Notes under the pieces: generated by a model
The model's database searches: none
Told to the model about the DNA's origin: nothing
Seen by the model: the letters and a program-made list of their open reading frames with translations, nothing else
Made by a program: the position numbers and the translations under genes
Source of the DNA: a virus
DNA length: 64,000 nucleotides
Direction: 5' to 3' (one strand)
IMG/VR virus record: IMGVR_UViG_3300043788_000023
Coordinates: 1 to 64,000 of that record
Shown here: positions 539-17,500 of the stretch, piece after piece
How the letters are laid out: each line of letters starts with the position of its first letter
How positions within the stretch are numbered: position 1 is the stretch's first letter

Positions 539-2596
539 ATGAAATCCGTCACCGCAGACAAGCTGCCGAATATGCACAGCACCGACTTCAACGGCATTCC
601 CATCGTCGTTGAATGGCCGAAGGGCAGCGTCCGTGTGGGCAAGCATGACGACGGCGAAAGCTGGAAGATGGACATGAAGTGCGACTACGGCTATATCCCG
701 AACACGGTAGACGCCGACGATGACGATCATGTGGACGTGTACATCGGACCCAACAAGGACTCCGAGTACGCTTACGTGATGGAGCAAATGAAAGACGGGC
801 ATTTTGACGAGTTCAAGATCATGCTCGGGTTTGACTCTCTTGAAGAAGCCGAGAAAATGTACTTGGAGCACATGTCCGAAGATCGGCTGGGAGAGATCAC
901 GGAAGTCCCCTTTACCGAGTTCCTCGCCACTGCCACGAAAGTGATGCCGGAAGCCAAAGAGCACGAGGAAAAAGTCCACGAAGAACGTGCCGAGAAGCAC
1001 GAGGAGAAGCGCCAAGCTGCCGCTAACGAGTGGGGCGATATGATCCCCGGCGCTGAAGAAACTATTGAAAAGCCCAATGTTGTGCCGGGACCCGCGGAAG
1101 GCGAATCGTGGTACCACGGCCGACGTGGGGAGCACACGTTTGACCCGAACCGCCCGGCGTTCTTTGCCCGTGAGCGTGAAGGGGCGGGATGGTATGCGCA
1201 CGAGCGTGGGCAGGACGATGCTGAGCCTACCATCGGGGAGTACAAGCTAGACATCAAGAAACCAGCCAGGCTGCGTGACCTCATGGCAGTGGTGAAGAAG
1301 CTTGGCGTCACAGACGCAGACATCCAGCAGCACAGCCAGTACGAAGGCGAAAACGACGTTGACTATTTGTACGTGCCCGAGGTGCGAGACGCCCTCAAGG
1401 CAGGCGGGTTTGACGGCTTCGTCGGCTGGGACACACTGTCCAACGGTGATTTGCAAATCGCCGTCCCGCTGAGCACCGGGCAGATCAAGCACATCAAATC
1501 GGTCACAGCAGACGAGAAGCTCTCTCTGATTGACGCTTTCGTCAAACTGTACAAGCACGAGTTTGAGTACTTCACAAAGGTTGCCGAAGAAGTCAATGAC
1601 CAGCTTGCCGACGCTCTGCAAGAGGCGGGCATCAAAGCCGCCCTGACCTTCCGTGCCAAGAAGCCCCGCAAGCTCAAAGCGAAGCTTCTCAACCGCAGCA
1701 AGAGCAAGAACTACCAGTCCTTCCAAGACATCTACAACGACATCGTTGACATGGCTGGTGTGCGTGTGGCGCTGTACCTACCCAACGACCGCACCGCAGT
1801 AGGGCAGATCATTGAAAAGCTGTTCACTCAAATGCGTGCCCCTAAGAACTTCCCCGAGGACAAGGCCCCGGAAGATTCCATCGGTTACATTGCTACGCAC
1901 TACCTCGTTAGACTGAAGCCAGAAACTCTTCACAAGGATGAATACCAATATGCAGACACCAACGTCGAAATTCAGGTCGCGTCCGTGCTCATGCACGCGT
2001 GGGCAGAAGTCACCCACGACCTCCTCTACAAGCCCGAAAAAGGAACCCTCACCTCCGAAGAAGTAGCAATGATTGACGACCTGAACCGGGTCGTGCAGGA
2101 AGGCGAGGGCGTGCTTGAGAAGCTACAACAGTCAGTGGAGAACCGCAGTCACGAGGACTTGCGCTTTGAACTTTCCGCTGCGCTGACCAAGCTGGCGAAG
2201 AGGTTGGAGACCCAGTCCAAGGGGCAGGCGACCCGCAGGATCACCGCTAGTGACATCAAGACCGTCGCCAAGCAGGCGTTTGAAGACCTCTACGCCTCAC
2301 TGACGCAATACATGCAGGACCTTGGCTGGAATCACGCAGGGCACGACGCTTGGTCAGACCCGGACAAACCACAGGAACAGATTCATGTGTTCCACGACGG
2401 CTGGGTGCATCGTGCATGGGACGAGATTAAGGGCAACGGCAGCACGACACAGGAGCTTCAGGAGTACCTCGGGAAGCGTGGTATAGACGAGGCGAAGCAC
2501 GAGCGCACGCTGGAGGATCAGCCTCCTCTGCCCGCACACGTGAGCTACCTGAAGGCCAAGCTCGCTTTGTGGAAGGCACACAGTAAACCGATCTAA
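539..2596 (+). CDS. PPase-like / ART-like / RelA-SpoT synthetase fusion protein
   Basis: The 685-aa product has three modules. Residues 18-130 match the soluble inorganic pyrophosphatase fold as used in phage polyvalent proteins (IVVEWPKGS, DYGYIPNT, the acidic HVDVYIG stretch, DEFKIMLGF). Residues 188-320 are a polyvalent-type ADP-ribosyltransferase-like module (WYHGRRG...FDPN...FFARE...GFDGFVGW). Residues 335-530 are a RelA/SpoT nucleotidyl-pyrophosphotransferase domain: VDMAGVRV with D404, and VEIQV...LMHAWAEVTHDLLYKP with E477. These positions correspond to the catalytic Asp and Glu of alarmone synthetases. No HD hydrolase domain is visible. An acidic/basic helix (136-165) links the first two modules. 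No clear Shine-Dalgarno precedes ATG 539; a hairpin does. The product could be (p)ppGpp or, as in toxSAS enzymes, a pyrophosphorylated tRNA; sequence alone cannot decide. Confidence 0.8.
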   Translation: MKSVTADKLPNMHSTDFNGIPIVVEWPKGSVRVGKHDDGESWKMDMKCDYGYIPNTVDADDDDHVDVYIGPNKDSEYAYVMEQMKDGHFDEFKIMLGFDSLEEAEKMYLEHMSEDRLGEITEVPFTEFLATATKVMPEAKEHEEKVHEERAEKHEEKRQAAANEWGDMIPGAEETIEKPNVVPGPAEGESWYHGRRGEHTFDPNRPAFFAREREGAGWYAHERGQDDAEPTIGEYKLDIKKPARLRDLMAVVKKLGVTDADIQQHSQYEGENDVDYLYVPEVRDALKAGGFDGFVGWDTLSNGDLQIAVPLSTGQIKHIKSVTADEKLSLIDAFVKLYKHEFEYFTKVAEEVNDQLADALQEAGIKAALTFRAKKPRKLKAKLLNRSKSKNYQSFQDIYNDIVDMAGVRVALYLPNDRTAVGQIIEKLFTQMRAPKNFPEDKAPEDSIGYIATHYLVRLKPETLHKDEYQYADTNVEIQVASVLMHAWAEVTHDLLYKPEKGTLTSEEVAMIDDLNRVVQEGEGVLEKLQQSVENRSHEDLRFELSAALTKLAKRLETQSKGQATRRITASDIKTVAKQAFEDLYASLTQYMQDLGWNHAGHDAWSDPDKPQEQIHVFHDGWVHRAWDEIKGNGSTTQELQEYLGKRGIDEAKHERTLEDQPPLPAHVSYLKAKLALWKAHSKPI

Positions 2597-2607
2597 AAGG
2601 GGAACCA

Positions 2608-2982
2608 GTGAAGTCCGACCGTACCCTCCTCGGCTGGTATACGTACATCAACGAACGCTTCTTTGACGGCGTGTGCCCCGACCGGGTGTGCGTGCGCTGG
2701 GCTGACCCGGATGAGACGGAAAGCCGTACTTGGGAGACAAAGTACTTCGGCGAGGCTTCCGAGGCGCTGGACGACGAGTACCACGACTACCAGATCATCA
2801 TGAGCAAGCCCCTCAACAAGCAGTGGATCGTCCGAACCTCCACGTTAGTTCATGAAATGATTCATCTTGCGACCGGATTGAAGGACGACCACGGCCCGGC
2901 TTTTGAGCGCTGGCGGATCAAGCTTGGTGAGCGGGGTATCTTCAAGAAGCACGCCCTGCGCAAGGGCTACACCCTATTCTAA
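2608..2982 (+). CDS. SprT-like zinc metallopeptidase
   Basis: The 124-aa protein starts at GTG 2608, eleven bases after the previous stop, with AAAGGGGAA as ribosome site. It carries LVHEMIHLATG, a HExxH zinc motif, then DDHGPAFERW in which the His is the likely third ligand. The layout is that of the SprT-like zincin family, and the length fits a minimal catalytic domain. SprT-like peptidases cut DNA-bound or other proteins; phage copies also occur as modules of polyvalent proteins, and a relative of this fold sits at residues 1020-1054 of the next protein. The target is unknown. It lies in a tight co-directional cluster with the fusion protein and the giant ORFs. Confidence 0.75.
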   Translation: MKSDRTLLGWYTYINERFFDGVCPDRVCVRWADPDETESRTWETKYFGEASEALDDEYHDYQIIMSKPLNKQWIVRTSTLVHEMIHLATGLKDDHGPAFERWRIKLGERGIFKKHALRKGYTLF

Positions 2983-3027: not shown

Positions 3028-6000
3028 ATGAGCCTACTGGACAAAAAGACGGCGCGGCAGTACGACAACGCCTCCACCCAGATCAACGTGCCCCCGGAGA
3101 TCGCCGCTGAGATCACCCGTATCGGGAAGGAACTGATACCGGATGAGCACTTGGCGGGCGACGGCAGGGTTGAGGTCATCCACGTGACCATCAAGTACGG
3201 CGTGGAGCCAGACCAGAGCACTCTCCAGCAAACGATAGCCGGGTACAAATCCTTTGAGGTTTCACTGGGCAAGACCGTGGTGTTCCCAGATGCCGAGAGC
3301 GAGGGCGTCCCGGTCGTGATTGAAGTCCACGGGCACGAGTTTGACGCTCTCCACAAAGCAATCGCGGCAGCCATGGGCACCCTGCCCGACGAGTTCGCCT
3401 ACACCCCGCACATCACCGTCGCATACGTCGCACAGAAGGAAGCGCAGCACTACGCCGGGAAGGACAACTTCGTCGGCATGAAGTTCGTCGCCGATGCTGT
3501 GACCCTGTCCATGTTTGACGACGACAACCAAGTTGACGTCCCGCTGAAGACAGCAGCATCTCCCTCACAGGTGACGCCGGAAATCCCCGAGGTCACGCCA
3601 CAGTACCAGCAGGAGCCTGAAGAAGAGGAAGAAGTTCAACGTGACGAACCTGCTACGGAAGAGAAGCAGGAGAAGCGGAAGCCGAAGCTTCTCCAACCGA
3701 AGCAGCCTAAGCAGAAGGCACAACCGAAGCCGAAGAAGCCTCCTGTTGAGACTACGAACTTCAAGAAGTGGTTTGGCAAGTCACAGGTGCGTGACGAGAG
3801 CGGTAAGCCGATGGTGGTTTACCACGGCACGACGCATGACTTTGAGGCGTTTGACCCAAACACAGCGAACCCGGAAAATCACTACGGCAAGGCACTGTAC
3901 TTCACGTCGTCCAAGACGGATGTGGCCGAGAACTATGCTACAGAGTCAGGGCCAGACCTAACCAGCCGCATTGACAATCGTTCCGAGCGGATCATGCAGG
4001 AATGGGAAGACCAGTGGGACGACGTCAAGAATGATCTCGGTCTCGGAGACATTGAGGAGTTCCCAAGCTACAGCGAAGAAGGCTACGGACGGGTGCAGGA
4101 AAGAGCAAAGCAGGAAGCCAAGAGGGAAGTCGCTGGGCAAAGCAAGGGCATGACCATGCCCGTCTACCTCAGCCTCCAGAACCCAGTCGTCGTGCAGAAG
4201 CGTGGGGGTACTCAGTTCCAAATCAACATTGACGAGGATGGCAACGAGTCCGGCAACGGTCTTGATATGTACAACGCCATGCACTTGGTCGGGGGAAACT
4301 TTAATGCCGATGTGCAAGGGATGTGGGGAGCGCTATTTGAGAACACTGACGGCGACTTCAATGCTTGGGATTTTGAGAAGGTAGTTCGTGGGCGGGACGA
4401 CGTTGAAGACGACGAAGGCAATATGGCTCCGGGCAGCTTTATTGCTCAAGTGTATCAAGAAATGGGCTTTGATGGCATCATTCAATCCGCCTACGAAGCA
4501 TTCGGCCCGCAGTCTCTCGGGCCTGGTTACGGTCAGACCAAGGGTATGACGATGGATGAGGACACCAAGCATTACATCCTCTGGGACCCAACCAAGATCA
4601 AGAGCGCTATCGGCAACCCCGGCAAGTTTGATCCGAAGAATCCGAGCATCACTGCCGGAAATCGTTCAGGCACAATCAACCAAGAGTTCTTAGCGACACT
4701 CAGCTACCGGGATTTTCCGCAGGGTGATGGGGGTACGGCTTATGCCGAGGATCGTGACGGCAGAGTCGTAGGGAGCGTAACCTATAGGCTGACGGGCGTA
4801 CGTTGGATCAACATCATTCTAACCGATGTGGATGCGAAAATTCTAGGCAACGGTGTCCTGTACGGGTTGTTCAAGTTCCTAGAGAAGGAATATGACCCGG
4901 CTCACGTTGTACTCTCAGACAAGATAAGGTCAAGACTAGCACGTGACTCAGGGATTATGTCCATGACTCCGGGTACCCCACGCAGGGCAGCCGTGACTGG
5001 CAAGCAAGTCCCTTTGGACGAGCTTCCGGGTGAGGTGAAGGCGGACTTCGTCGCGGAGATGGCAGAGCGCCTGAACAAGATCGGGTACAGGTTCCCGCAC
5101 GACCCCGACCGTGAAATAGACGAAGGAGACATCCAAGCCAACTTCTTTGGCATCGTAGACGAGCCGACGATCACCGTGTACGACGCTCCTGTTGAGAAGC
5201 TCTACAAGACATTCAACCGTAAGCCGAGCGAGGTTGCTGTTGCGAAGTACGTGGAGATGCTGAAGTCCGGCATGAACTTTGATCCCATCTTTGTGAACAA
5301 CGGCAAGTTCTACGACGGCGGGCATCGCCTTGAAGCCTACCACCAAGCTGGACGCAAGACCATCCCAGTCGCCGAGATAGGCCCGTACCTGAACGCACCG
5401 TTGGAATTCTGGCAGCGCTGGTTTGACAATGACCCAGATACGAAGATCGCCGCGATTGGCGACGACTATCATCAGTACGTAGGCTGGCTCCTACCTGATG
5501 GAAGTTTCCAGCCATTGCTCAAGGGTGAGAGCCACCGCCAAGGGGCTGTGCGCATCGGGATTTCCACCGACCCACAGAACATGACCGAGGCTTTTGATAG
5601 TGGAGCCGTGCGAGTCAGCGGTCACCAGTACACTGAACTGGAGTTCAAGGCACTGACGTCAAGCGCCATTTCCCTGCTCACGGACTTCATCCTCCAGAGC
5701 CGACAGAACGCCAAGGGCATCACCTTTGACTGGTTCCAGCCACGACGCAGGGAGCAGGAATTCCGCAGCGTGGACGACGCTCTGATGTTCCTTGACAACC
5801 CCCTCGCCGTCACGGCTTCCAAAGCCGCCGCTGGCGTGACAGGCGTGGGAGACCTCGGGCTGGCGAAGAAGATCATGCACGAACTTATGCCAGTGCTGGG
5901 CGTCCAGCTTCCCGAGCCGGAACTCAAGATCGTGAATTCACCACGCTCTAACTTCCTCGGGCGTGACATTTGGCCGACACGCTACGTGGAGAAGCCGTTC

Positions 6001-9000
6001 AGCCTGTCTTGGGACGACAATACAAGGGTGGAACTCCAGCGCTCCATCCTGAACGACGAAAATACGCTGCGCCGCGTCATTGCGCACGAGCTTTGTCACC
6101 ATGCCGACTTCTTGGTCAACGGCGTAGAGGAAGCCAAGAAAATTCACGACCTCTGGTCGCTGAAACGGTTCAACAGCAGTGATGGGCACGGAGCGCCGTG
6201 GAAGCAGTTCGCGCAGAAGTTCAACGCCAAGTACGGAGCAGACTTCGTTACCAAGAAGTCCGATGAGTCGTACGTGACAGAAGACATAGAACTGAAGCCG
6301 TTCCACATCCTGTTGGAACGTAGCTACGACGGCACGTTGGGCTACGAAGTCTCATCCCGTCTGTCGCCCAAGCAAAAGCGGTACTTGGACAGGCTGGCGC
6401 AGAGGCAGGGCAAAGAGGGTGAGTATCAGAACCGCATCATCATGACCAGCGACCGTGACTGGTTGAATGGTCCGCTCATCGGTTCCTTCTACCACGCACG
6501 CCCGAAAGAGCCAGAAAAGCAGAAGAAGCTTGAAGAACTTTGGGCGAAGGGTCAGGCACCGCAGCCCACGGGCGCGGCGAAAGAACAGGATGAGATTTTG
6601 AACAAGATGAGGCAAGTGCCTTGGCTCAACCAGAGGAAGTCCTCTCTGCTGACCAAGATGGCGGACGGCGGGGACGAAGTGGTTTGGGAATACGCCCAAG
6701 CCATGAAAGACCCCGAGAAGAATAAGAATTACCGCCAGAAGTGGGACGTGGTGCCAGCCGCACGCCTGAAAAAAATCTGGACGGACTATGCGAACTTGGG
6801 CTTCGTGCGTGACGAGGCTGGGATGCGCAGAATCGCAGGTCAAGTCCTTGACAACATCTGGAAGCTTCAAACGAACACGATCCTCACCGGGCACACGGAA
6901 GAAAGCCCGTCGCGCTACGGTTCCGAGATTCTCGGGCAGGAGTTGCCGGAAGACTACTTTGATCAGCTTGAAAGCTTCTTTGAGGATGATCGCGGATCAT
7001 GGCGCATCAGCGACTACGGCTTGGACTCGTTGCTTGGCATCGCGTACAAGCTTGAGGGCGAGGATAACGCCGAGAAGCAACTTCAGTTGGTTGACCGGGC
7101 GCTGCAAGTGACGCATCCGCGCAGCGACCTCGCAAACTGGTTCGTTGAGGGCGGAAGCTCCGCCTTGAGCCAACTATTCCATGGGATGCCGCTGACCGAG
7201 TTGGAGAAGGGACGCAAGCAGGGAGCCGCGCCGCAGCTTGAGGACTTGGAACAAGCCGTCACTGACAGCCGTTCCACCTCACTGCCCCAGATTCAGCAGT
7301 TGCCACACGGCGTGTCCAAGGAGTACGACCGCGTGCGCTGGGTCTACCAGCAGTTCCTTGACGCTCGTGTCCAGTCAATGTCGTGGCAGGACTTCCAGAA
7401 GAAATTCCCGAAGGAACGGAACTCTCCGCTGTTCACCAAGGTGCGCCAGAACCGTCCGAAGATTACGACCGAGGACATGGAACGCTGGATGGACGAGTTT
7501 GACGCCAAGGCGAAGGAGTACCAGAACTACGAGATTGAGCACGATACGTACAAGGACAAGGCTACGTCCTTCCGCGACGTGGAGCAGCTTGTCCTGAAAA
7601 TCAATCAGTCCGCCAGCGCAAGAGAGATCATCGGCGAAGACCCGATGCTGACGGAATTCCTCGGTCAGATCGCGCAAGGCAGCCAGCAGTCCGGGCACCC
7701 GGTGAGTGCGAATACCGTGGGCTGGCTGCGTGTGGACTTCATTGACGACGACTGGCTGTTGGTGGACGAGGTGCAGTCCGACTTGGTAAACGCCATGGAA
7801 CTCGGGAAGAAGTTCGTCACCGAGCCGACGCTGGAATCCCTGATGTCTGGGTACAAGAGCGACACCGTGAAGCAGAAGATTCGGGACATGGGGGCGACGG
7901 AACAGTCGTTCCAGATGTCCAAACGGAACATGCTCAGCCGTGGCTACACAGTTGAGAAGCTGGATGAGATGAAGCAACAGCTTATCAATTTGTTCAAGGA
8001 CTGGGCGGAGTACGGCATCGCCAGCCTGATTGAGATCGCACGCCGCCACGGCATCAAGAACGTGGCTATCCACACAGGCGAGACTATCGCTAAGCGTGAT
8101 CCCGACCTTGAGGCAGACAAGGCGATCATGTACTACGACCAGCTTGCGAAGTCCTTCGGCTTTCAGAAGCAGATGCTTGACGTGGGCGAACTCAAGGGCA
8201 ACTTCTGGGTGCGCACAGCAAGCGAGAAGACCGCAGGTAAGCGTGACGAGGCGGGCAGCAGCATGACGGTCGGCACCACAGACCCGAACTTCCCCATGCC
8301 AGTATTGATCCGCTGGGAACAGGGCATGCGCTGGCGTCAGGTGCTCAAGACTGTGAAAGCTGTCGTAGGCGAGATCGCCGGGCACAGAGTGGCGTGGCGT
8401 GACATCCACATCTGGGCATCCCTGTGGGCGAACCGTGAGGAACAGGAAAAGGGCTGGGCTGAGCAGAAAACGAAAGGCAAGTACATCATGTACGACATCC
8501 TGCACAACGGGACGTTCGTCAGCGTGGGTAAGCCAATCGCAGCGCCTCTGGGCGAGGGGATCATAGAAGCCTCGCACAAGGAGACGCCTCTCAGCGACAC
8601 CACGTTCCACAATCCAGAGATCGGCGAGGAGACCAATGCTTACGCCGACATGGAGGAAAAGGTTGAGGGGGACGAGGAGTTCCCTGCTTTGGAGACGCTT
8701 GCTCCGCAGATGTTTGAGAAGGAAGGAGCCAAGTCACTTCAGGCACAACTCATGGCGCTGCGTCCTCAGATGGCGCAAGTGGCACAAGGAATCTACGACG
8801 ATTGGGACTCTGGCGGCTACCGTTCGTCGGAGGGCGGCGACATTGAATTCGGAGAGGGCGGCATCTGCGACTCCATAGCACGTGAGATCGGCGGTATCAT
8901 CGCAAGCAAGATCAGGGACGTTGAAGTCACAGACGGCGGGCAGGACGGCGACGACCACGCATGGACGATTGCTTACCGTGGGAAGGAAGTTTACGGCATT

Positions 9001-11547
9001 GACATTCCGCACACGCTGTATGAACGTGGCGGCGGTTACTCGTGGACGAAGGTTCCGGGCGTGACGTTCAGCGCCGACGACGTGGAGATTTTCCCCTTGG
9101 ATGTTGACCCATCCGAGTTCGCTAAGGAAGGCGCAGCAGAAGGCGTGGAGTACAGGATTGAAGTTCTGGACTCTCACGGCGGCGAGCTTTTCTGTGAGGC
9201 GGAGGCTTGGCTCAACGACAAGCGCATCGGTGTAGTGAGCTTCAACGAGTCCGAGGAGCACGTTGAGCTTGAAAACACGGAATACTACCGGGAAGGACAG
9301 GACGAGTACGGCTCAAAGGAGTGGGAGCGGATCAAGGAGCTTCCGAGGAAAATCTGGATCAAGAACGTGGAGGTCAAGCCAGAGTACCGCCGCCAAGGAA
9401 TAGCCACGGGCATGTACGAGAAGATCAAGCAGGAGTTTCCCGGCGAGGAGATCACCAGCAGCGGCACGACGCCCGAAGGCGGCAAGTTCCGTGAGAAGCT
9501 GACCGAGCGTGGTGTGCTTGCACGCAAGAGCGCCCTACTCCAAAAGAAGGGAGTGTACGGCGAGCAGCAGAACCAAGTCCAGCACACCGACCATGAAGCT
9601 GTAGGGATGACCAAGACGCTGAAGAGCGATCCGTTCTCTGAGGAGATGGAAGCACTCCAGAAGGAGAACATTGAGCCGAACCCGATCATTGAGTCCGGCA
9701 GAATAGAGGAACACCCGCAGGCAAAGGGTGAGGATCAGTTGCAGCAGGGAACGAAGATGGAGAAGGCCAGCGCCAAGTTCAGGAAGGACAAGCGTGATAC
9801 CGTGCCCGGCCAAGTTTACCTCCTACACTTTGACATCAAGCCCGGCAGGAAGGTGCCTAACGAGCGGGAAGACGCCAAGAAGCCGTTCCACGCCCGCCAC
9901 TACCTCGGCTGGGCGACAGATGCGCAGGAACGCATCCAGCAGCACTACGAAGGCTCAGGAGCGAAGATAACCCAAGCCTTGAAGCGCAAGGGCATAACCT
10001 TCACTGTGGCTCGTGTATGGGACGGCGCTGACAGGAACTTTGAACGCAGGCTGAAGTCACAGGGCGGGCTTAGCCGCCATTGCCCAATCTGCCACAGCCT
10101 CGGGCTGATACCGGACTCCCGCTACCGAAAGCCGTCTCTGGAAGCGGTCGAGGCGGTGCCGGAGGAGATGCAGTTTGGCCCCGACTATGTTGAGAAGAGC
10201 GCAGCCAGTGTAGCCGCAGGGAATGTCCAAGCGGCACTGGACGAAATTGACACAATATACCCGCTCAACCCGCTGAACCAACGGGAGAACGTCGTGATGC
10301 AGGGCACCATCCCGGTGGCTGTTGTGGAGGTCGCGGAGCGTTCCGGCAGGCTACGACTCAGGGGAATCCGTTCCATGCAACAGGGGAAGGGAGGCGGGTC
10401 GCATGCCCTGAAAGAAATCCTCGCGATCGCGGACAAGCACGGCGTTGAGGTGGAACTCACGGCGTCTCCGTTCGGCCCCGAGGCTGAGCGCCTTGACAAA
10501 GACGCCTTGCAAGCGTGGTACAGGAAGCACAAGTTTGAGGACGAGCCGGGCTACGACCCGTCGCTAGGCTACATGGTACGCCAGCCCAAGTCGGCCGCGG
10601 GCGCTGTGGACATTGACTGGAAGAGAAGCATGTTTGAGCACTTCAAACTTGTTCCCGAGTTTTCATGGCACGAGGCGGGCGACGATACCAGCGAGGACGA
10701 GGAGATCGGCGAGTCAAACTGGAACCTGATGGTGGTGAACGCTTTTGACACGACCAAGAAGCAGAAGGGACAGCCGGGCAAGTGGGTGGGTTCCGCCGAC
10801 TTTGTGCTCCGCCACGGGAACCTTGAGTCCGCGAATACCGAGGTGGACAAGAGCTACTGGAGGCAGGGCATTGCCACGGCGATGTATCAGTACGCCGAGG
10901 GGTTCACTGGCTTCAAGGTGACACCGCACTTGACGCAGTCCGAGGCGGGTCGTGCCTTGTGGCAGCAGAAAGACAGACCGTTTGGCAAAAACTCTGCGGT
11001 GGACGTACGCAAAATAGTTGAAGAAGGCGGGGGGAAGTACCAAGGGATGATGGAGCACTTGGTTCTTTTCAATTCCCCAGTGACAGACTCCACGTATGCG
11101 TTTCCACTAGATAGCATTACACCTGAAGCCGTTCGTGAGCAGATTGAACAGGGGGACGCCAAGTTCAAGAAAAACGGGGCGCAGACGGTGTCCGGCGAGG
11201 ACGTGGTGTCCTACGTAGCGAAACTCAACGAGTGGGACAGGGACACGGCGTATCAAGTAGTAGGGCTGGATGCGGGTGGTGAATATGTCCTGAAGGACTT
11301 CCCGCTGAGCAAGTTGTCGGCAGGGGACGATTACGACCCAGATCAAGCGGAACAGTACGCAAGAATGGAAGGCTCGTTCCCGCCTATCGTGCTGGGGCTA
11401 GCGTCAAGGGCGCACCGTGACAAACCGATCATGGTGAACTACTACGTCATCCGTGACGGCAATCACCGTGTAGCAGCCGCCAAGCTTCGTGGCGATACCA
11501 AGATCAAAGCGTATGTTCCGCTAGACTCTACGAAGGAGAAGAAATAG
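3028..11547 (+). CDS. Giant polyvalent protein 1 (2839 aa)
   Basis: Modules in order: 2H phosphoesterase (HVTIKYG at 52, HITVAYV at 128); a charged Lys/Pro/Glu linker; ADP-ribosyltransferase-like domain (VVYHGTT near 264 to about 545); possible degenerate GNAT; ParB-like domain (DGGHRLEAY near 763); zincin (HELCHH 1020-1025 with DGHGAPW); helical spacers; an EVQSD-motif module (about 1555-1730) known from other large polyvalent proteins; a Cys-His-Asp module (C1947, H1977, D1992); GNAT (RRQGIATGMY near 2118); GIY-YIG-like nuclease (VYLLHF...HYLGWATD, then CPICH, about 2255-2370); two further GNAT domains (GKGGGSHAL near 2453; WRQGIATAMY near 2610); a C-terminal ParB-like domain (DGNHR 2810-2814). 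ATG 3028 has AGAGGGG upstream. Phage proteins of this type are typically injected with DNA; that role is inferred here. Confidence 0.85.
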   Translation: MSLLDKKTARQYDNASTQINVPPEIAAEITRIGKELIPDEHLAGDGRVEVIHVTIKYGVEPDQSTLQQTIAGYKSFEVSLGKTVVFPDAESEGVPVVIEVHGHEFDALHKAIAAAMGTLPDEFAYTPHITVAYVAQKEAQHYAGKDNFVGMKFVADAVTLSMFDDDNQVDVPLKTAASPSQVTPEIPEVTPQYQQEPEEEEEVQRDEPATEEKQEKRKPKLLQPKQPKQKAQPKPKKPPVETTNFKKWFGKSQVRDESGKPMVVYHGTTHDFEAFDPNTANPENHYGKALYFTSSKTDVAENYATESGPDLTSRIDNRSERIMQEWEDQWDDVKNDLGLGDIEEFPSYSEEGYGRVQERAKQEAKREVAGQSKGMTMPVYLSLQNPVVVQKRGGTQFQINIDEDGNESGNGLDMYNAMHLVGGNFNADVQGMWGALFENTDGDFNAWDFEKVVRGRDDVEDDEGNMAPGSFIAQVYQEMGFDGIIQSAYEAFGPQSLGPGYGQTKGMTMDEDTKHYILWDPTKIKSAIGNPGKFDPKNPSITAGNRSGTINQEFLATLSYRDFPQGDGGTAYAEDRDGRVVGSVTYRLTGVRWINIILTDVDAKILGNGVLYGLFKFLEKEYDPAHVVLSDKIRSRLARDSGIMSMTPGTPRRAAVTGKQVPLDELPGEVKADFVAEMAERLNKIGYRFPHDPDREIDEGDIQANFFGIVDEPTITVYDAPVEKLYKTFNRKPSEVAVAKYVEMLKSGMNFDPIFVNNGKFYDGGHRLEAYHQAGRKTIPVAEIGPYLNAPLEFWQRWFDNDPDTKIAAIGDDYHQYVGWLLPDGSFQPLLKGESHRQGAVRIGISTDPQNMTEAFDSGAVRVSGHQYTELEFKALTSSAISLLTDFILQSRQNAKGITFDWFQPRRREQEFRSVDDALMFLDNPLAVTASKAAAGVTGVGDLGLAKKIMHELMPVLGVQLPEPELKIVNSPRSNFLGRDIWPTRYVEKPFSLSWDDNTRVELQRSILNDENTLRRVIAHELCHHADFLVNGVEEAKKIHDLWSLKRFNSSDGHGAPWKQFAQKFNAKYGADFVTKKSDESYVTEDIELKPFHILLERSYDGTLGYEVSSRLSPKQKRYLDRLAQRQGKEGEYQNRIIMTSDRDWLNGPLIGSFYHARPKEPEKQKKLEELWAKGQAPQPTGAAKEQDEILNKMRQVPWLNQRKSSLLTKMADGGDEVVWEYAQAMKDPEKNKNYRQKWDVVPAARLKKIWTDYANLGFVRDEAGMRRIAGQVLDNIWKLQTNTILTGHTEESPSRYGSEILGQELPEDYFDQLESFFEDDRGSWRISDYGLDSLLGIAYKLEGEDNAEKQLQLVDRALQVTHPRSDLANWFVEGGSSALSQLFHGMPLTELEKGRKQGAAPQLEDLEQAVTDSRSTSLPQIQQLPHGVSKEYDRVRWVYQQFLDARVQSMSWQDFQKKFPKERNSPLFTKVRQNRPKITTEDMERWMDEFDAKAKEYQNYEIEHDTYKDKATSFRDVEQLVLKINQSASAREIIGEDPMLTEFLGQIAQGSQQSGHPVSANTVGWLRVDFIDDDWLLVDEVQSDLVNAMELGKKFVTEPTLESLMSGYKSDTVKQKIRDMGATEQSFQMSKRNMLSRGYTVEKLDEMKQQLINLFKDWAEYGIASLIEIARRHGIKNVAIHTGETIAKRDPDLEADKAIMYYDQLAKSFGFQKQMLDVGELKGNFWVRTASEKTAGKRDEAGSSMTVGTTDPNFPMPVLIRWEQGMRWRQVLKTVKAVVGEIAGHRVAWRDIHIWASLWANREEQEKGWAEQKTKGKYIMYDILHNGTFVSVGKPIAAPLGEGIIEASHKETPLSDTTFHNPEIGEETNAYADMEEKVEGDEEFPALETLAPQMFEKEGAKSLQAQLMALRPQMAQVAQGIYDDWDSGGYRSSEGGDIEFGEGGICDSIAREIGGIIASKIRDVEVTDGGQDGDDHAWTIAYRGKEVYGIDIPHTLYERGGGYSWTKVPGVTFSADDVEIFPLDVDPSEFAKEGAAEGVEYRIEVLDSHGGELFCEAEAWLNDKRIGVVSFNESEEHVELENTEYYREGQDEYGSKEWERIKELPRKIWIKNVEVKPEYRRQGIATGMYEKIKQEFPGEEITSSGTTPEGGKFREKLTERGVLARKSALLQKKGVYGEQQNQVQHTDHEAVGMTKTLKSDPFSEEMEALQKENIEPNPIIESGRIEEHPQAKGEDQLQQGTKMEKASAKFRKDKRDTVPGQVYLLHFDIKPGRKVPNEREDAKKPFHARHYLGWATDAQERIQQHYEGSGAKITQALKRKGITFTVARVWDGADRNFERRLKSQGGLSRHCPICHSLGLIPDSRYRKPSLEAVEAVPEEMQFGPDYVEKSAASVAAGNVQAALDEIDTIYPLNPLNQRENVVMQGTIPVAVVEVAERSGRLRLRGIRSMQQGKGGGSHALKEILAIADKHGVEVELTASPFGPEAERLDKDALQAWYRKHKFEDEPGYDPSLGYMVRQPKSAAGAVDIDWKRSMFEHFKLVPEFSWHEAGDDTSEDEEIGESNWNLMVVNAFDTTKKQKGQPGKWVGSADFVLRHGNLESANTEVDKSYWRQGIATAMYQYAEGFTGFKVTPHLTQSEAGRALWQQKDRPFGKNSAVDVRKIVEEGGGKYQGMMEHLVLFNSPVTDSTYAFPLDSITPEAVREQIEQGDAKFKKNGAQTVSGEDVVSYVAKLNEWDRDTAYQVVGLDAGGEYVLKDFPLSKLSAGDDYDPDQAEQYARMEGSFPPIVLGLASRAHRDKPIMVNYYVIRDGNHRVAAAKLRGDTKIKAYVPLDSTKEKK

Positions 11548-14500
11548 TGCGTTGGTACCACGGCACATCTAAGCAGAACGCCGAGAAAATCCTCAAAGAG
11601 GGTGTTCTCAAGCCGGGGGAGCACTCTGTCTATCGGGAGGATGTCCCACGCTACGATGCCGTGTACCTGACGTCCGACTGGCAGATCGCAAAATACTACT
11701 CCGAGGAACGTGGCAAAGATGGCGTGGTCTTAGAGATCGCTGCTAACGAGAGCAAGCTGATGCCGGACGAGGACTCCGTCTACGACGCCCTGCACGAGGG
11801 TGCTGTGTCGCTGGGAGGGAAGGCGAACAAGAGGCTGGGGCAAGCGATCCGTGAAGAGTGGTTCAAGTATTGGAAGTCCATTGACGGTGAAGGTGACACG
11901 TTTGAGGAAGCATGGGAAGCGTGGAGCAATGTGGAAGCCGAAGGCTCGTCGGGAATCGCCGAAGAGATGAAGGCTCTCACCGAGGAAATCCACGAGAAGA
12001 ACCCCGCTCTGTCCAAGGCAATCATCAAAGCCAGCGGCAAGGCTGCGCACATCGGACCCGCCAAGGTCGTAGGTATCGCCAAGAAGGCAGCCAAGAAGGT
12101 CAAGCTCGTGAAGACGCCGGGCTTCGTAATTGAGGTGCCACAGGAACGTCGCACGAAGTTCTTCGTCCGACCGAAGGCTCCGCTGGAATACTGGGCTTTC
12201 AAGAACCGTCCCCGTGTCTTCATCAACGAACCACTCATCTTCACTTTCGGCGGGAAGCCTGTGGCGCAAGCCGTGGTCGTCAGAGTTGAGGCACCAGGCA
12301 AGGGCGAAGGCGAGTACAAGCACTGGCACAAGGTGTATTGGAAGCCGACGAGCTTCAAGAAGTTCAAGGTGACTGCTGCCGAGAATCCGAAAGTGTTGTA
12401 CCACCTTAGCCGCCGCACGAACCGTCAATCAATCCTGAAGAGTGGGTTGCTACCGCTGCTCAAGGAGTACAAGGACATTGAGCGAGCGCCAGGAGTCTAC
12501 TTCTTCCAGAGCCTTGCCGCCGCGAAGGACTACGGCTTCTTTCACGCACAGTTTATCAACCAAGCCACCGACATCTGGGAGTGCCGCATCCCCGAAGGCT
12601 ACAAGCTGTACCGTGATCCTCACCCGGAGATGGCTGAATTTGATGCGTGGATGAGCCACGACGTTCTGCCCCCAAAGAACTTGAAGGTCGTGGACACGAT
12701 CCTTGTGTCAAACTCCACGGAGGACGCCCCGCCGCGCTACAAGGGCACGAAAGCCTCGCTGCTCAAGTCCGCCAAGGTCAAGCTGCCGACATTTGAACAG
12801 GTCGTATCCAAAGACCCGAACAATGAGTTCAACCTCGTCAACGATTACGAACACGGCGTAGCGGACATGTGGGAAGACCGCAGCCTCAATAACATGAGGG
12901 AATACTACGACGAGGTCGCGCCGAAGCTGGCGAACCTGAAGTTCCCACTCACTGTCTACCGTTGCTACGCGCTCAAGGAGGGCAACAAGGTTGATTACAA
13001 AAGCCTCGGCAGTTCTTGGTCACTCAGCAGCAGGGCGGCATATCTCGCTTCCCACGAGATGTTCAACGACGAAGAGTACGAGCAGCACAAGGTGATCACT
13101 GGCGTCCTGCAAAGCCCGGACGGCGTGGACTGGGTCAACACTGTGCGGGCGTGGATGACGCTGCCAGAAGAGCAAGAGATCAGACTGAAGCCTGGTGCGC
13201 AGGTCAAGGTGCAGGGCAAAGTGCGCACCGCGACCAGCAAGAAGTTCTACCACGGCACGAAAAAGAAGAACCTTGAAGACATCATGAAGAACGGGCTGAA
13301 GGTTGCGATGTCCGAGGCTCACACCGAGTGGAATCATGCGATATACCTTGCGTGCGACGTCTATACTGCTGCAAACTATGAGGGCATGCACGGAGGGGGC
13401 GAGCCGTGGGTGATCTTTGAGATTGACGGCAGGAAGTTGAACGAATACTATATGCGCCCGGACGACTATGACTTCCCCGACCTCTGGGCGCAAGAAGGAC
13501 GTGAGGAGAACTGGGCGCACCAGACATGGCAGACGAGCCTCAAGATGTCGTGCCAGATCGCCTATCTCGCTGACATTCCAGCAAGTGCTATTAAGGTGTA
13601 CGAGGGCAAGACTCGCTTTGCTTCTGGCGACGACTCTGAACTCAAAGGTGACATGACAGAAAATCCAGACTACTACATGACGGAAGGCTGCGGCATCTAC
13701 GCTGTTGACTTCGCCCGCAAGAACGGCGGAGAAATTTACGTCTTGGCTGCCGAGCGTGGCGACCAATGGAGTGAGGAAATCCCGTACGAGGTCACGCACG
13801 CCTTCGTGAAGAAGGACGGTAAGACCTACGACATTCGTGGTGAGCGCACGCCGGACAAGATGGCGTGGGAACTCAGCATGGGCGAGTACAGCGTCAAGGG
13901 TCCGTGGACGCCGGATGCGTTTGAAGCCAAGTTCATGGGCGACACCGATGATAAACCGCTGTTCGGCAACACCGCCGCTCTGGGCGACCAGCATCACCAC
14001 GCCGATGACATCCCCACACCGCTGCGCACAGTTCTGAAGCGCCCAGCAGTGATTGACTGGTACTCCGACTCGCCCGACGTGGCGGGGAAGCCAAAGCTAA
14101 TTGACATTGACCCGAAGACGCTCCTAACCGATCAAGCCACGGTCAGCAAGTCGCACCTTGACAAAATCTTGGCAAACATCAACAAGATAAACGAACCAAC
14201 GCCGAGCACAAGCGAGGAGCATTCGGCTCATCCAATGGTGCTTGGCACGTCCGAGGGCGACTTCATTTTTGACGGGAACCACCGCTGCGCAGCCGCTTTG
14301 ATGAAAGACTTGACCATCAAAGTCCTGTATCTTGACCTCACACCAATAGAGGATCGGGTGCCGGAGCTTTATCTTGGGGAAGAAGATGGGACCGGGGTGA
14401 AGAGTGCCGCCGCCAAACTCCCCAAGGGTTGGCGGGTCACCATCAAAGGGGAGGCAGTACCCGGAAGTCCCTACCCGTACTATTGGGGGCATCTCTGGAA

Positions 14501-17500
14501 AGACAATCAGTTCTACGGCACGTGCGGCGTCGGCAGTGAGTACCGGGACAAAGCACGTGAAGCTGCAATTGACTGGGCGTGGCAGGCATCCGGTCAGGAA
14601 CGACCCAAGACCGCTGCTGAAGACACACAGACGTTCTACCATGGCACGACGTGGGAAGCCGCGAAGGACATTGACAAGACCGGGATCAAAGCCAATAAGT
14701 GGAAGTTCGGACCGGGGAAGTTTGTGTGGGTCACGATTCATCCGGGTCAAGCCTACGAGTACGGACAGTCTATTTCATGGCACGAACTAGATCAGCCGGA
14801 ACGCAGTGCGGTCGTAGAGTTTGAGTGGCCCTACAAAGAAAGCGAGCCTGACCCCGAACATGAACCGCACGGAGACATGTACCGCCGAATTCCGTCCGAC
14901 ATTCCACGTTCAGCTATCAGGAAGATTCAGTGGTTTGAGAAGGGCAAAATAGTCAAGACTGCCAACCTCAAAAGCGCCGACCACGTTAACGAGGAAGGAT
15001 ACTGGGCGGGCGAAGGCAACGCCGCATCCGGCGTGCTGGCTGTGTGCCCGAGCAAGGGCACGGTGTGCTTCGCGTGGAGAAGTTCCGAGGTGATGAGTCC
15101 AAACTGCTGGGGCACCATCGGCGGCGCTGTGCAGAAGGACATGTCTCCACAGCAGTCTGCGAAAAAGGAGATGGCTGAAGAGACTGGGTACAGCGGTGGC
15201 ATCACCTTGACTCCGGCGTATGTGTTCACTGACCGTGGCTTCTCTTATCACAATTTTATCGGCGTCGTATCAAACGAGTTCACGTTCAATCCCAGCGAAG
15301 GCTTCGGCTGGGAGACGGATCACATCGTCTGGGTGCCATACCAAGAAGCGCTGGAGGACATGCAGGCGAACCCCGGTGACTACCATCCCGGCGTGTTGAA
15401 GCTGTTCGCCAACTCCAAGGATGTCATCGAGCGTGCGCTGAAGATCAAGAAAACGGCATGGAAGGAGATCGCTTGGAGCGACAAGGAAGGCGATCTGATG
15501 GGCGGCATCCTTGAAAGCGCTGCCGACCTGAAGGCTTGGGCGTCGCCGTCCATGGACGACGAACTGTTTGCCATGTACATGGAGATGTTCAAACGCAAGC
15601 GGGTGGCTGTGATTGATGCCATGAACGCTTGGAACCCCGGTCAGGGCAAGGGCACGGAGATGCTTGAACGTTTCATCGCCGAGGCGAGAGCGAAGAACTG
15701 CGACGCCATCGTGCTTGAATCCGGTAATGCCCCGAATCAGTTTGACATACACGCATGGTACCAAGAGTACGGTTTCCGTGACTTCGGTACGGCGGACGGC
15801 ATGCCGCTCATGGTAAAGTGGCTCAAGCCGGGAAAGAAAAAGTCGGCAGACGAGGAGATCATCAAGTCCGTGACGCCTGAGATTGACAAGCCGTACATTG
15901 ACGAAGGCGAGTGGCAGAGAATAAACAAGTGGCTCATCTCCCTTCAGTGGCGTGGACGCAATCCGTGGTACCCGGAGAAGTTCCCGTGGTTTTGCATCCG
16001 GCTGTTCTCGGACGGATGGGTTGCCAGCAACGATCTCATGAAGGAGACTCTTGCCGAGGGCAAAGACTTGGCTTCTCTGAAGAAGTACCTGTCCGAATTT
16101 GCAAAGGAGTACCGCACCAGCTTGGATGCGTTGCGTACACCGCCTTACAAGACACTTGACATGCAGACCGATGCTCTCACGAAGCGTGGAGCGTTTGACC
16201 CATCATGGATGAAACGGTGGGTAGAAGGGGACTGCTGGCTGTTTGCTTTGGCTCTGTCCCACCGGATGCCTGACGCCACGTTTGTAGGTCTTGAAAAGAA
16301 AAATGTGGTGCATCATGTTGGTTTGAAGAAGGGGGATCGGTACTTTGACGTCCGGGGAGAAATGGAAGCGGACGAGTTCAACTACGGGGCGGACGCTGAC
16401 GAGCCTTACGAGATCGTACCGATGGACTACGAGCAAGTCATGCGAGATGGGGAGTACTCAAGCTGGATAGGACATGAGGACGAATTCAATGCCCTACCTG
16501 AGATGAAGCAGGCTGAGAAAGCGGTTCGTCGGGTGTTTGGTCAACGCAAGGATGCCGCAGGCGTTATGGAAAGTCGCCAGCCATGCCCCAGCGGTAAGCG
16601 CAAGTTCTATGACGAGCGTTCGGCTATCGGCCCGCACAAGAAGTGGGACGAGGGCACGCCGAACCTACGTGCCTACCAATGCCCGAAGTGCGGATGGTGG
16701 CACTTGACCAGCAAACCCCAAAGGCAGCCAGTGATGGCGGGTGAATTTGACGAGTCCAACCGCCTCTACGAAGAGAGCGTCGCCAACGAAGGCAAAGCCC
16801 CCCAGAACCGGGGACTGTACGAAGGAAAGCCATTCTGGAGCGGGATCGCGGACGTTGCGGACGGCAGCATCATTGAGGTTCACACCTACGAGGAAGCCGA
16901 GCGTGGGGACTTCCATCACAGCTTCTATGTAAGTCATTCGTCACAGCAGATGATGAAGGAGGGGGACTACGCCTTCTTCTGGATTGACGAAGACGGCGGC
17001 AGGAGTGCTGTCCAAGTTGAATGGCCCACGGCAAATCAAGACGTCAAGATTCCGCCAGACCTAGCGAAGCGCATCTCAAGTCATATCCAGTTCCGCAAGA
17101 CTGCGGCGGCGCACACGCCGGAGTACGCGCAGAAGCTCATTGAGACGCTCAAGCAGACTGTCCACGAGGCAGACTTCAGGGTCATCGGTTCCGTAGGCGC
17201 TGGCGGTACATCAGAGAACGACTTGGACATTATGGTGGACATCCACCCGAACGCAGCCTTTGACGACGACAAAGCTTGGATTGAGACAAGTGGGTTGGTC
17301 GGAGCAATGAAGCTGATGGGCTTTGACAACATTGACACTTCAGAATTCAGCCCCGAAGAGAGCGTGGAAAAGTCGGAGACGAGCGGCAAGTATCTGGACC
17401 CGCAGGGTTCCAGCATTGAAAAATTCTTCAACCCAACGACACATCACACTGTAGAGTTTTGGTTCGCCGAGTCTGGTATGGAGAAGGAGGCGGACTGGAA

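Follow-up and report, generated by a model that had tools for sequence, protein, structure and literature searches.

A clade of huge phages has conserved a fusion of an inorganic pyrophosphatase with a predicted RelA/SpoT-fold pyrophosphokinase

Is the RelA/SpoT-like domain encoded near the start of a virus record a working enzyme, and what might it do there in fusion with a pyrophosphatase? The question arises from IMG/VR virus record IMGVR_UViG_3300043788_000023, which comprises 169,608 bases; its left end, positions 1 to 64,000, is the window analysed here. A single, real open reading frame (ORF) of 685 codons encodes a polyvalent protein, which combines several unrelated effector domains within one phage protein. 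Two domains were assigned with confidence by hmmscan, namely an inorganic-pyrophosphatase domain (InPase) and, C-terminal to it, RelA_SpoT. A sequence-only reading had proposed an alarmone synthetase fused to a pyrophosphatase-fold domain and an ADP-ribosyltransferase (ART)-like module. The first two parts, the metal-binding acids, the basic ATP-binding residues and the lack of a hydrolase held up, whereas the ART module and the three-part unit did not. Judged from sequence and predicted structure, the protein contains a genuine, conserved and probably active pyrophosphokinase domain of the RelA/SpoT homologue (RSH) fold, joined to InPase in a clade of huge phages.

The synthetase domain was borne out by profile and structure searches. 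Pfam family RelA_SpoT (PF04607) matched residues 372-500 with E=2e-12 and 47.8 bits (cut-off 27), and an independent search of the whole record gave E=1e-14 and 51.6 bits. Both phmmer and a family profile retrieved small alarmone synthetases from the PDB. The profile ranked YwaC, RelP and RelQ (65-77 bits) above CapRel (7ztb, 40 bits) and long Rel/RelA (28-39 bits), and PhRel2 of phage Lily was not recovered. The link to CapRel that had been suggested is therefore non-specific, and the YXXY/pseudo-zinc-finger part of CapRel is absent. The equivalog NF053588 (YjbM) scored 25.5 bits, compared to the 320 bits that it demands. AlphaFold2, run on an alignment of 41 rows (window plus loci), modelled residues 331-530 with a confidence (pLDDT) mostly above 90; one block in the G-loop was at 66. 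Foldseek searches with the predicted domain returned RelQ, RelP and YwaC first, with target-normalised template-modelling (TM) scores of up to 0.82. The structure check, which could have spoken against the assignment, thus found the synthetase fold. Pfam detected no HD hydrolase domain in the 685-residue protein, and a profile search of the whole record detected no member of the HD_4, HD or MazG families, in agreement with the sequence-only reading.

The active site is intact. In SaRelP, D107 and E174 bind the metal, and R78, R112, H190, K80, K88, R91 and S84 hold the donor ATP (PMC5794853); the counterparts in FaRel2 are R64, K66, S70, K74, R77, D90, R95, Y128, E145 and Q147 (PMC11782079). 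According to the alignment, the corresponding residues of the phage protein are R372, K374, K378, K382, R386, D404, R409, Y450, E477, Q479 and H493. The acids D404 and E477 are located where they had been predicted, in VDMAGVRV and VEIQV, and are invariant across the family. The basic ATP-binding residues R372, K374, K382, R386 and R409, the loss of which would have counted against a synthetase, are all present. Twelve positions (R372, K374, K382, D404, R409, Y450, H454, E477, Q479, H493, Y497 and K498) show no variation among 13 phage and 92 bacterial-type sequences. Likewise, R386 and G407 are kept in all 13 phage sequences, which diverge down to 46% identity. The positions conserved in the phages coincide with ligand-contacting residues of SaRelP and FaRel2. 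The invariance of the metal and ATP residues across phage and bacterial relatives argues for selection on catalysis.

The N-terminal domain, for which a pyrophosphatase fold with an acidic metal-site motif had been predicted, is InPase. Its metal site comprises the acidic cluster D61/D63/D66 (719-736) plus D90-E91, and the InPase of the gp19 portal (PDB 9b41) matches this part with E=1e-18. The start of the protein, MKS.TADKLPNMHST, is common to the aligned relatives. Whole-protein tblastn in phage records matched only the InPase part, and a single-sequence scan of viral contigs found nothing; alignments were used thereafter. Three degenerate scans of viral contigs, based on different alignments, converged on one set, from which more divergent relatives are missing because the scans demand conserved motifs. 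InPase-RSH proteins with 44-66% identity are carried by 14 further viral contigs of 55-463 kb (L009-L019 and L169-L171), and a free-standing protein by 13 more. The 80 loci kept from a genome scan came from Pseudomonadota, Bacillota, Bacteroidota, Actinomycetota and others. A hidden Markov model (HMM) of InPase built from the phage proteins matched 15 of 15 phage proteins, that of the window included, and none of 93 free-standing relatives. In a quick tree without bootstrap, in which L170 and L171 are long branches, all phage InPase-RSH sequences group in a single clade (SH-aLRT 99.5), with the bacterial family next to it. The fusion has a single origin and has been conserved for long.

In one relative (L019, 9812-10936) the InPase match is split. 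Profile positions 9-49 fall on residues 10-50 and positions 54-129 on residues 291-371, with RelA_SpoT at residues 100-228 between the two stretches, all in one continuous frame. The insertion separates DYGYI from the acidic MDVYVG strand. As delimited by these HMM stretches, the synthetase is nested within the pyrophosphatase. The model of this protein is good for the RSH domain and poor for the second InPase half, as no alignment of those fragments was obtained.

The gene stands in an operon of polyvalent proteins, and a related giant ORF follows it in 13 of 13 relatives examined. The divergent upstream neighbour in L019 (8071-9708, minus strand) matches PHROG 1745, 'DNA transfer protein', with E=1e-176; related genes occur in L170 and L171. 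By this match, it is apparently a T5 A1-like pre-early gene. In L009, L014 and L169, the divergent upstream neighbour is an SbcD-like phosphoesterase (exonuclease). The polyvalent operon together with these T5 A1-like and SbcD-like neighbours suggests a role in early takeover.

Taking these points jointly we favour, with some reservation, a competent RSH pyrophosphokinase fused to InPase and encoded in an early host-takeover operon. A huge-phage ancestor would have acquired RSH once from the bacterial free-standing RelA/SpoT family, after which the domain would have been fused to a phage InPase. The InPase-RSH protein would be made as the first protein of the giant polyvalent operon and would plausibly act upon entry or shortly thereafter. 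Its RSH domain would move the beta-gamma pyrophosphate of ATP onto a 3'-hydroxyl acceptor. In this way, host ATP would be used to pyrophosphorylate a nucleotide or an RNA 3' end, and host transcription or translation would be slowed. InPase would remove pyrophosphate (PPi), and phage nucleic-acid synthesis would be favoured.

Several points weigh against this reading. RSH catalysis itself releases no PPi, so that chemistry offers no evident reason for the link to InPase. That the protein is packaged in the virion and injected with the DNA we infer from the neighbours only, among them the lysozyme-type domain of the co-directional 2652-residue protein. On the acceptor side, Lys or Arg is found among the seven residues that lead up to the G-loop Tyr in 0 of 13 phage sequences versus 92 of 92 bacterial relatives. 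Furthermore, A481 replaces the Arg of EIQIRT. Both features are departures from characterised synthetases.

The change in the G-loop is not a search artefact, because no scan pattern covers this loop. A basic residue before the Tyr is found in 51 of 56 other RSH domains encoded on viral contigs, and also in RelQ, RelP, CapRel and PhRel2. The ten residues that precede the Tyr have an average net charge of -2.7 across the phage clade versus +2.1 across the bacterial relatives. The motif EIQVAS in place of EIQIRT is common to phage and bacterial members. The Glu before the ribose His is replaced by T, A, C, S or N in the phage clade alone (T492 here) and kept in 90 of 92 bacterial relatives; PhRel2 likewise lacks it. 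The exchange to Thr492 was considered as a marker for tRNA versus GTP and dropped as proof, because the CapRel alignment is uncertain at this point and long Rels are likewise not known to carry this Glu. The size of the positive patch on the acceptor side has been tied to the type of acceptor (PMC11782079). In the light of this relation, the acidic G-loop makes an altered acceptor a reasonable assumption, and the altered loop suggests that the acceptor may differ from that of the GDP/GTP site of RelP and RelQ. A tentative extension is that the phages possess an RSH branch of their own with a switched acceptor, which would form a unit with the pyrophosphatase and generate a new 3'-pyrophosphorylated nucleotide or RNA during takeover. 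A switched acceptor would account for the acidic G-loop, EIQVAS and the Glu-to-small change before the ribose His; the unit is suggested by the phage that has its synthetase inserted inside the pyrophosphatase.

The alternative with the most weight, although we do not prefer it, is an ordinary synthetase of (p)ppGpp (or pppGpp/pGpp) with GDP, GTP or GMP as acceptor, by which the phage would trigger a stringent-like state. The closest solved relatives RelP, RelQ and YwaC are (p)ppGpp synthetases, and syn3 shows the RSH signature, A-x-H together with the G-loop Tyr, and not the GxN of adenosine 3'-pyrophosphokinases. This alternative is at odds with the loss of the Arg of EIQIRT and with the lack, in all 13 phage proteins, of the basic G-loop residue that RelQ, RelP, CapRel, PhRel2 and all 92 bacterial proteins possess. 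More doubtful is a pyrophosphokinase for the 3' end of tRNA or other RNA that resembles the toxic small alarmone synthetases (toxSAS) FaRel2, CapRel and PhRel2 and would block host translation by capping the CCA end. For tRNA-targeting toxSAS a small positive patch on the acceptor side has been reported (PMC11782079), the Glu before the ribose His is also missing in PhRel2, and the record contains the phage's own cluster of 11 tRNAs as well as a tmRNA. However, the phage tRNAs would bear the same CCA end, toxSAS too keep a basic G-loop residue, and the profile scores CapRel far below the (p)ppGpp synthetases and misses PhRel2.

It is unlikely that the protein is a resident effector against competitors or for superinfection exclusion and not a host-takeover factor. 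Such a role would be in line with the free-standing relatives in many bacterial phyla, some of them on viral or prophage contigs and with a weak PDC-S33 match; the phage form, in contrast, is locked to InPase and to the polyvalent operon beside T5 A1-like or SbcD-like genes, and no antitoxin-like neighbour was recognised. A catalytically idle domain that acts as a decoy for host RSH or CapRel-type immunity, or blocks it, would agree with the non-canonical acceptor loop and with the binding-only versions of host domains that phages carry, but is very improbable, as a non-enzyme would not be expected to keep all of its metal- and ATP-contacting residues strictly unchanged in 13 divergent phage sequences.

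Table 1. Features of the InPase-RSH locus, in window coordinates.
Feature	Position	Strand	Basis
685-residue protein: InPase - variable insert - RelA/SpoT synthetase - helical/small C-terminal domain	539..2596	+	Phage relatives share the start and the two main domains
InPase PF18823 (type I inorganic-pyrophosphatase fold), residues 13-129	575..925	+	Pfam E=1.3e-34, alignment
Variable insert, about residues 183-330, ART-PolyVal-like by eye only	1085..1531	+	Without family match
RelA/SpoT (SYNTH) pyrophosphokinase domain, residues 335-530	1541..2128	+	Pfam, AlphaFold2, Foldseek
ATP-donor basic patch R372, K374, K378, K382, R386	1652..1696	+	Equivalent to SaRelP R78/K80/S84/K88/R91 (PMC5794853) and FaRel2 R64/K66/S70/K74/R77 (PMC11782079)
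D404 (Mg), G407, R409 (adenine) in VDMAGVRV	1748..1765	+	Alignment
G-loop (acceptor site) EDSIG-Y450-IAT-H454; Tyr and His retained, preceding seven residues without K/R	1865..1900	+	Alignment
E477 (Mg), Q479 (adenine) in VEIQVAS; A481-S482 replaces R-T of EIQIRT	1967..1975	+	Alignment
T492-H493; H493 equals ribose His190 of SaRelP (PMC5794853)	2012..2017	+	Alignment
Small C-terminal module QYMQDLGW...HVFHDGWVH	2300..2503	+	Alignment, sequence reading
SprT-like metalloprotease gene, 11 bases downstream of the 685-residue ORF	2608..2982	+	PF10263 E=6e-8
2839-residue polyvalent protein: 2H/LigT phosphoesterase (weak Acb1 match), ART-PolyVal, SprT-like, GNAT, weak GIY-YIG	3028..11547	+	Pfam
2652-residue polyvalent protein: KptA-like, NUDIX, GNAT, lysozyme/transglycosylase-type matches	11547..19505	+	Profile matches

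The ART-like module that had been proposed for the insert could not be confirmed. A Pfam search of residues 183-330 gave no match, ART-PolyVal included; tblastn found no phage match, BLASTP found no match to the neighbouring protein that bears ART-PolyVal, and a scan of viral contigs with the insert found no relatives. The insert is disordered in the AlphaFold2 model, with a pLDDT of about 30 across most of it. The resemblance is visual and consists of the WYHG...FFA...WYA...FDG...QIK pattern of ART-PolyVal. The slot between the domains varies among the relatives: in L009, L010 and L012 no content stands out, L015 has a GNAT-like stretch there, and L169 has YHGT-type plus GNAT-like stretches. 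Thus, the pair of InPase and RSH is conserved, whereas the third part of the proposed fusion does not belong to the conserved unit.

The small C-terminal module (xxLGW...W...DGW) occurs once in the 685-residue protein and twice in L011:9170-11233; a further match lies at residues 1429-1536 of the 2652-residue neighbour (W11547). The SprT-like gene is kept at the same place in L009, L010 and L018. The 11 tRNAs and the tmRNA are clustered (L175; G000:C1 about 129,500-141,700) and comprise Gln (three), Thr (three), Ile (two), Glu and two with anticodon CUA (called Pyl). The latter were considered with respect to amber recoding, of which there is no clear sign: TAG ends 9 of the 94 ORFs of at least 150 residues, and the frame stays open for no more than 41 codons beyond it.

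The bacterial RelA/SpoT proteins (L020-L032, L089-L168) have about 430 residues and are widespread and horizontally scattered. Their motifs are EIQVASVLMHAW and the C-terminal RNxLVHG, the latter HEPN-like by eye only. They match the PADLOC candidate PDC-S33 weakly, and some members reside in viral or prophage contigs. A free-standing RelA/SpoT protein of the filamentous Vibrio phage PE002A (L002:6571-7581) matches PDC-S33 clearly (E=1e-17).

A huge-phage lineage has long kept a fusion of an apparently active pyrophosphokinase to a pyrophosphatase. Whether lytic phages place alarmone-like marks on the nucleotides or RNA of their hosts can thereby be tested directly, and the acceptor-site change that sets the clade apart yields a concrete prediction for an assay.

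That polyvalent proteins of phages can contain RelA/SpoT, InPase and ART domains is already known from the text of Iyer et al. 2017 (PMC5512222), where RelA/SpoT domains were proposed to trigger an alarmone-like host shut-down; to call the fusion unfamiliar, as had been done, was an overstatement. The protein studied here resembles those proteins in its multidomain build, its domain families, the proposed shut-down and its GNAT, 2H, SprT-like and lysozyme neighbours. The text of that paper mentions no InPase-RSH pair conserved among huge phages and no RSH nested in InPase, and no paper describing the pair was found in the literature, although the paper's figures or supplement could depict one. 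Relative to that text, the conserved fusion clade, the nested case and the altered G-loop are new. The Apk2/MuF adenosine 3'-pyrophosphokinases of temperate phages are MuF-linked (p)ppApp synthetases with GxN at syn3 and YH at syn4 (PMC12226406). They share with the InPase-RSH protein an RSH-fold domain attached to a phage protein. Their MuF carrier, GxN syn3 and iapK/aph1 immunity operon were not found at this locus, and the phage protein has AxH at syn3 and VA at syn4. The toxSAS CapRel SJ46, FaRel2 and PhRel2 share the fold and the catalytic residues and are distant in sequence. The phage protein lacks their antitoxin and their pseudo-zinc-finger/YXXY element: its neighbour is SprT-like, and reading of residues 530-685 revealed no YXXY. 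RelP and RelQ (YwaC/YjbM) are alike in having SYNTH without HD, a complete ATP-donor site and the Tyr and His of the G-loop; the phage protein differs by its low identity (21-26%), the missing basic G-loop residue, EIQVAS for EIQIRT and the InPase fusion. The bacterial family of about 430 residues is the nearest non-phage kin in the tree, with 40-51% identity and the common EIQVAS, and is set apart by features of its own, i.e. the absence of InPase, a basic G-loop, the Glu before the ribose His and a helical C-terminus with RNxLVHG.
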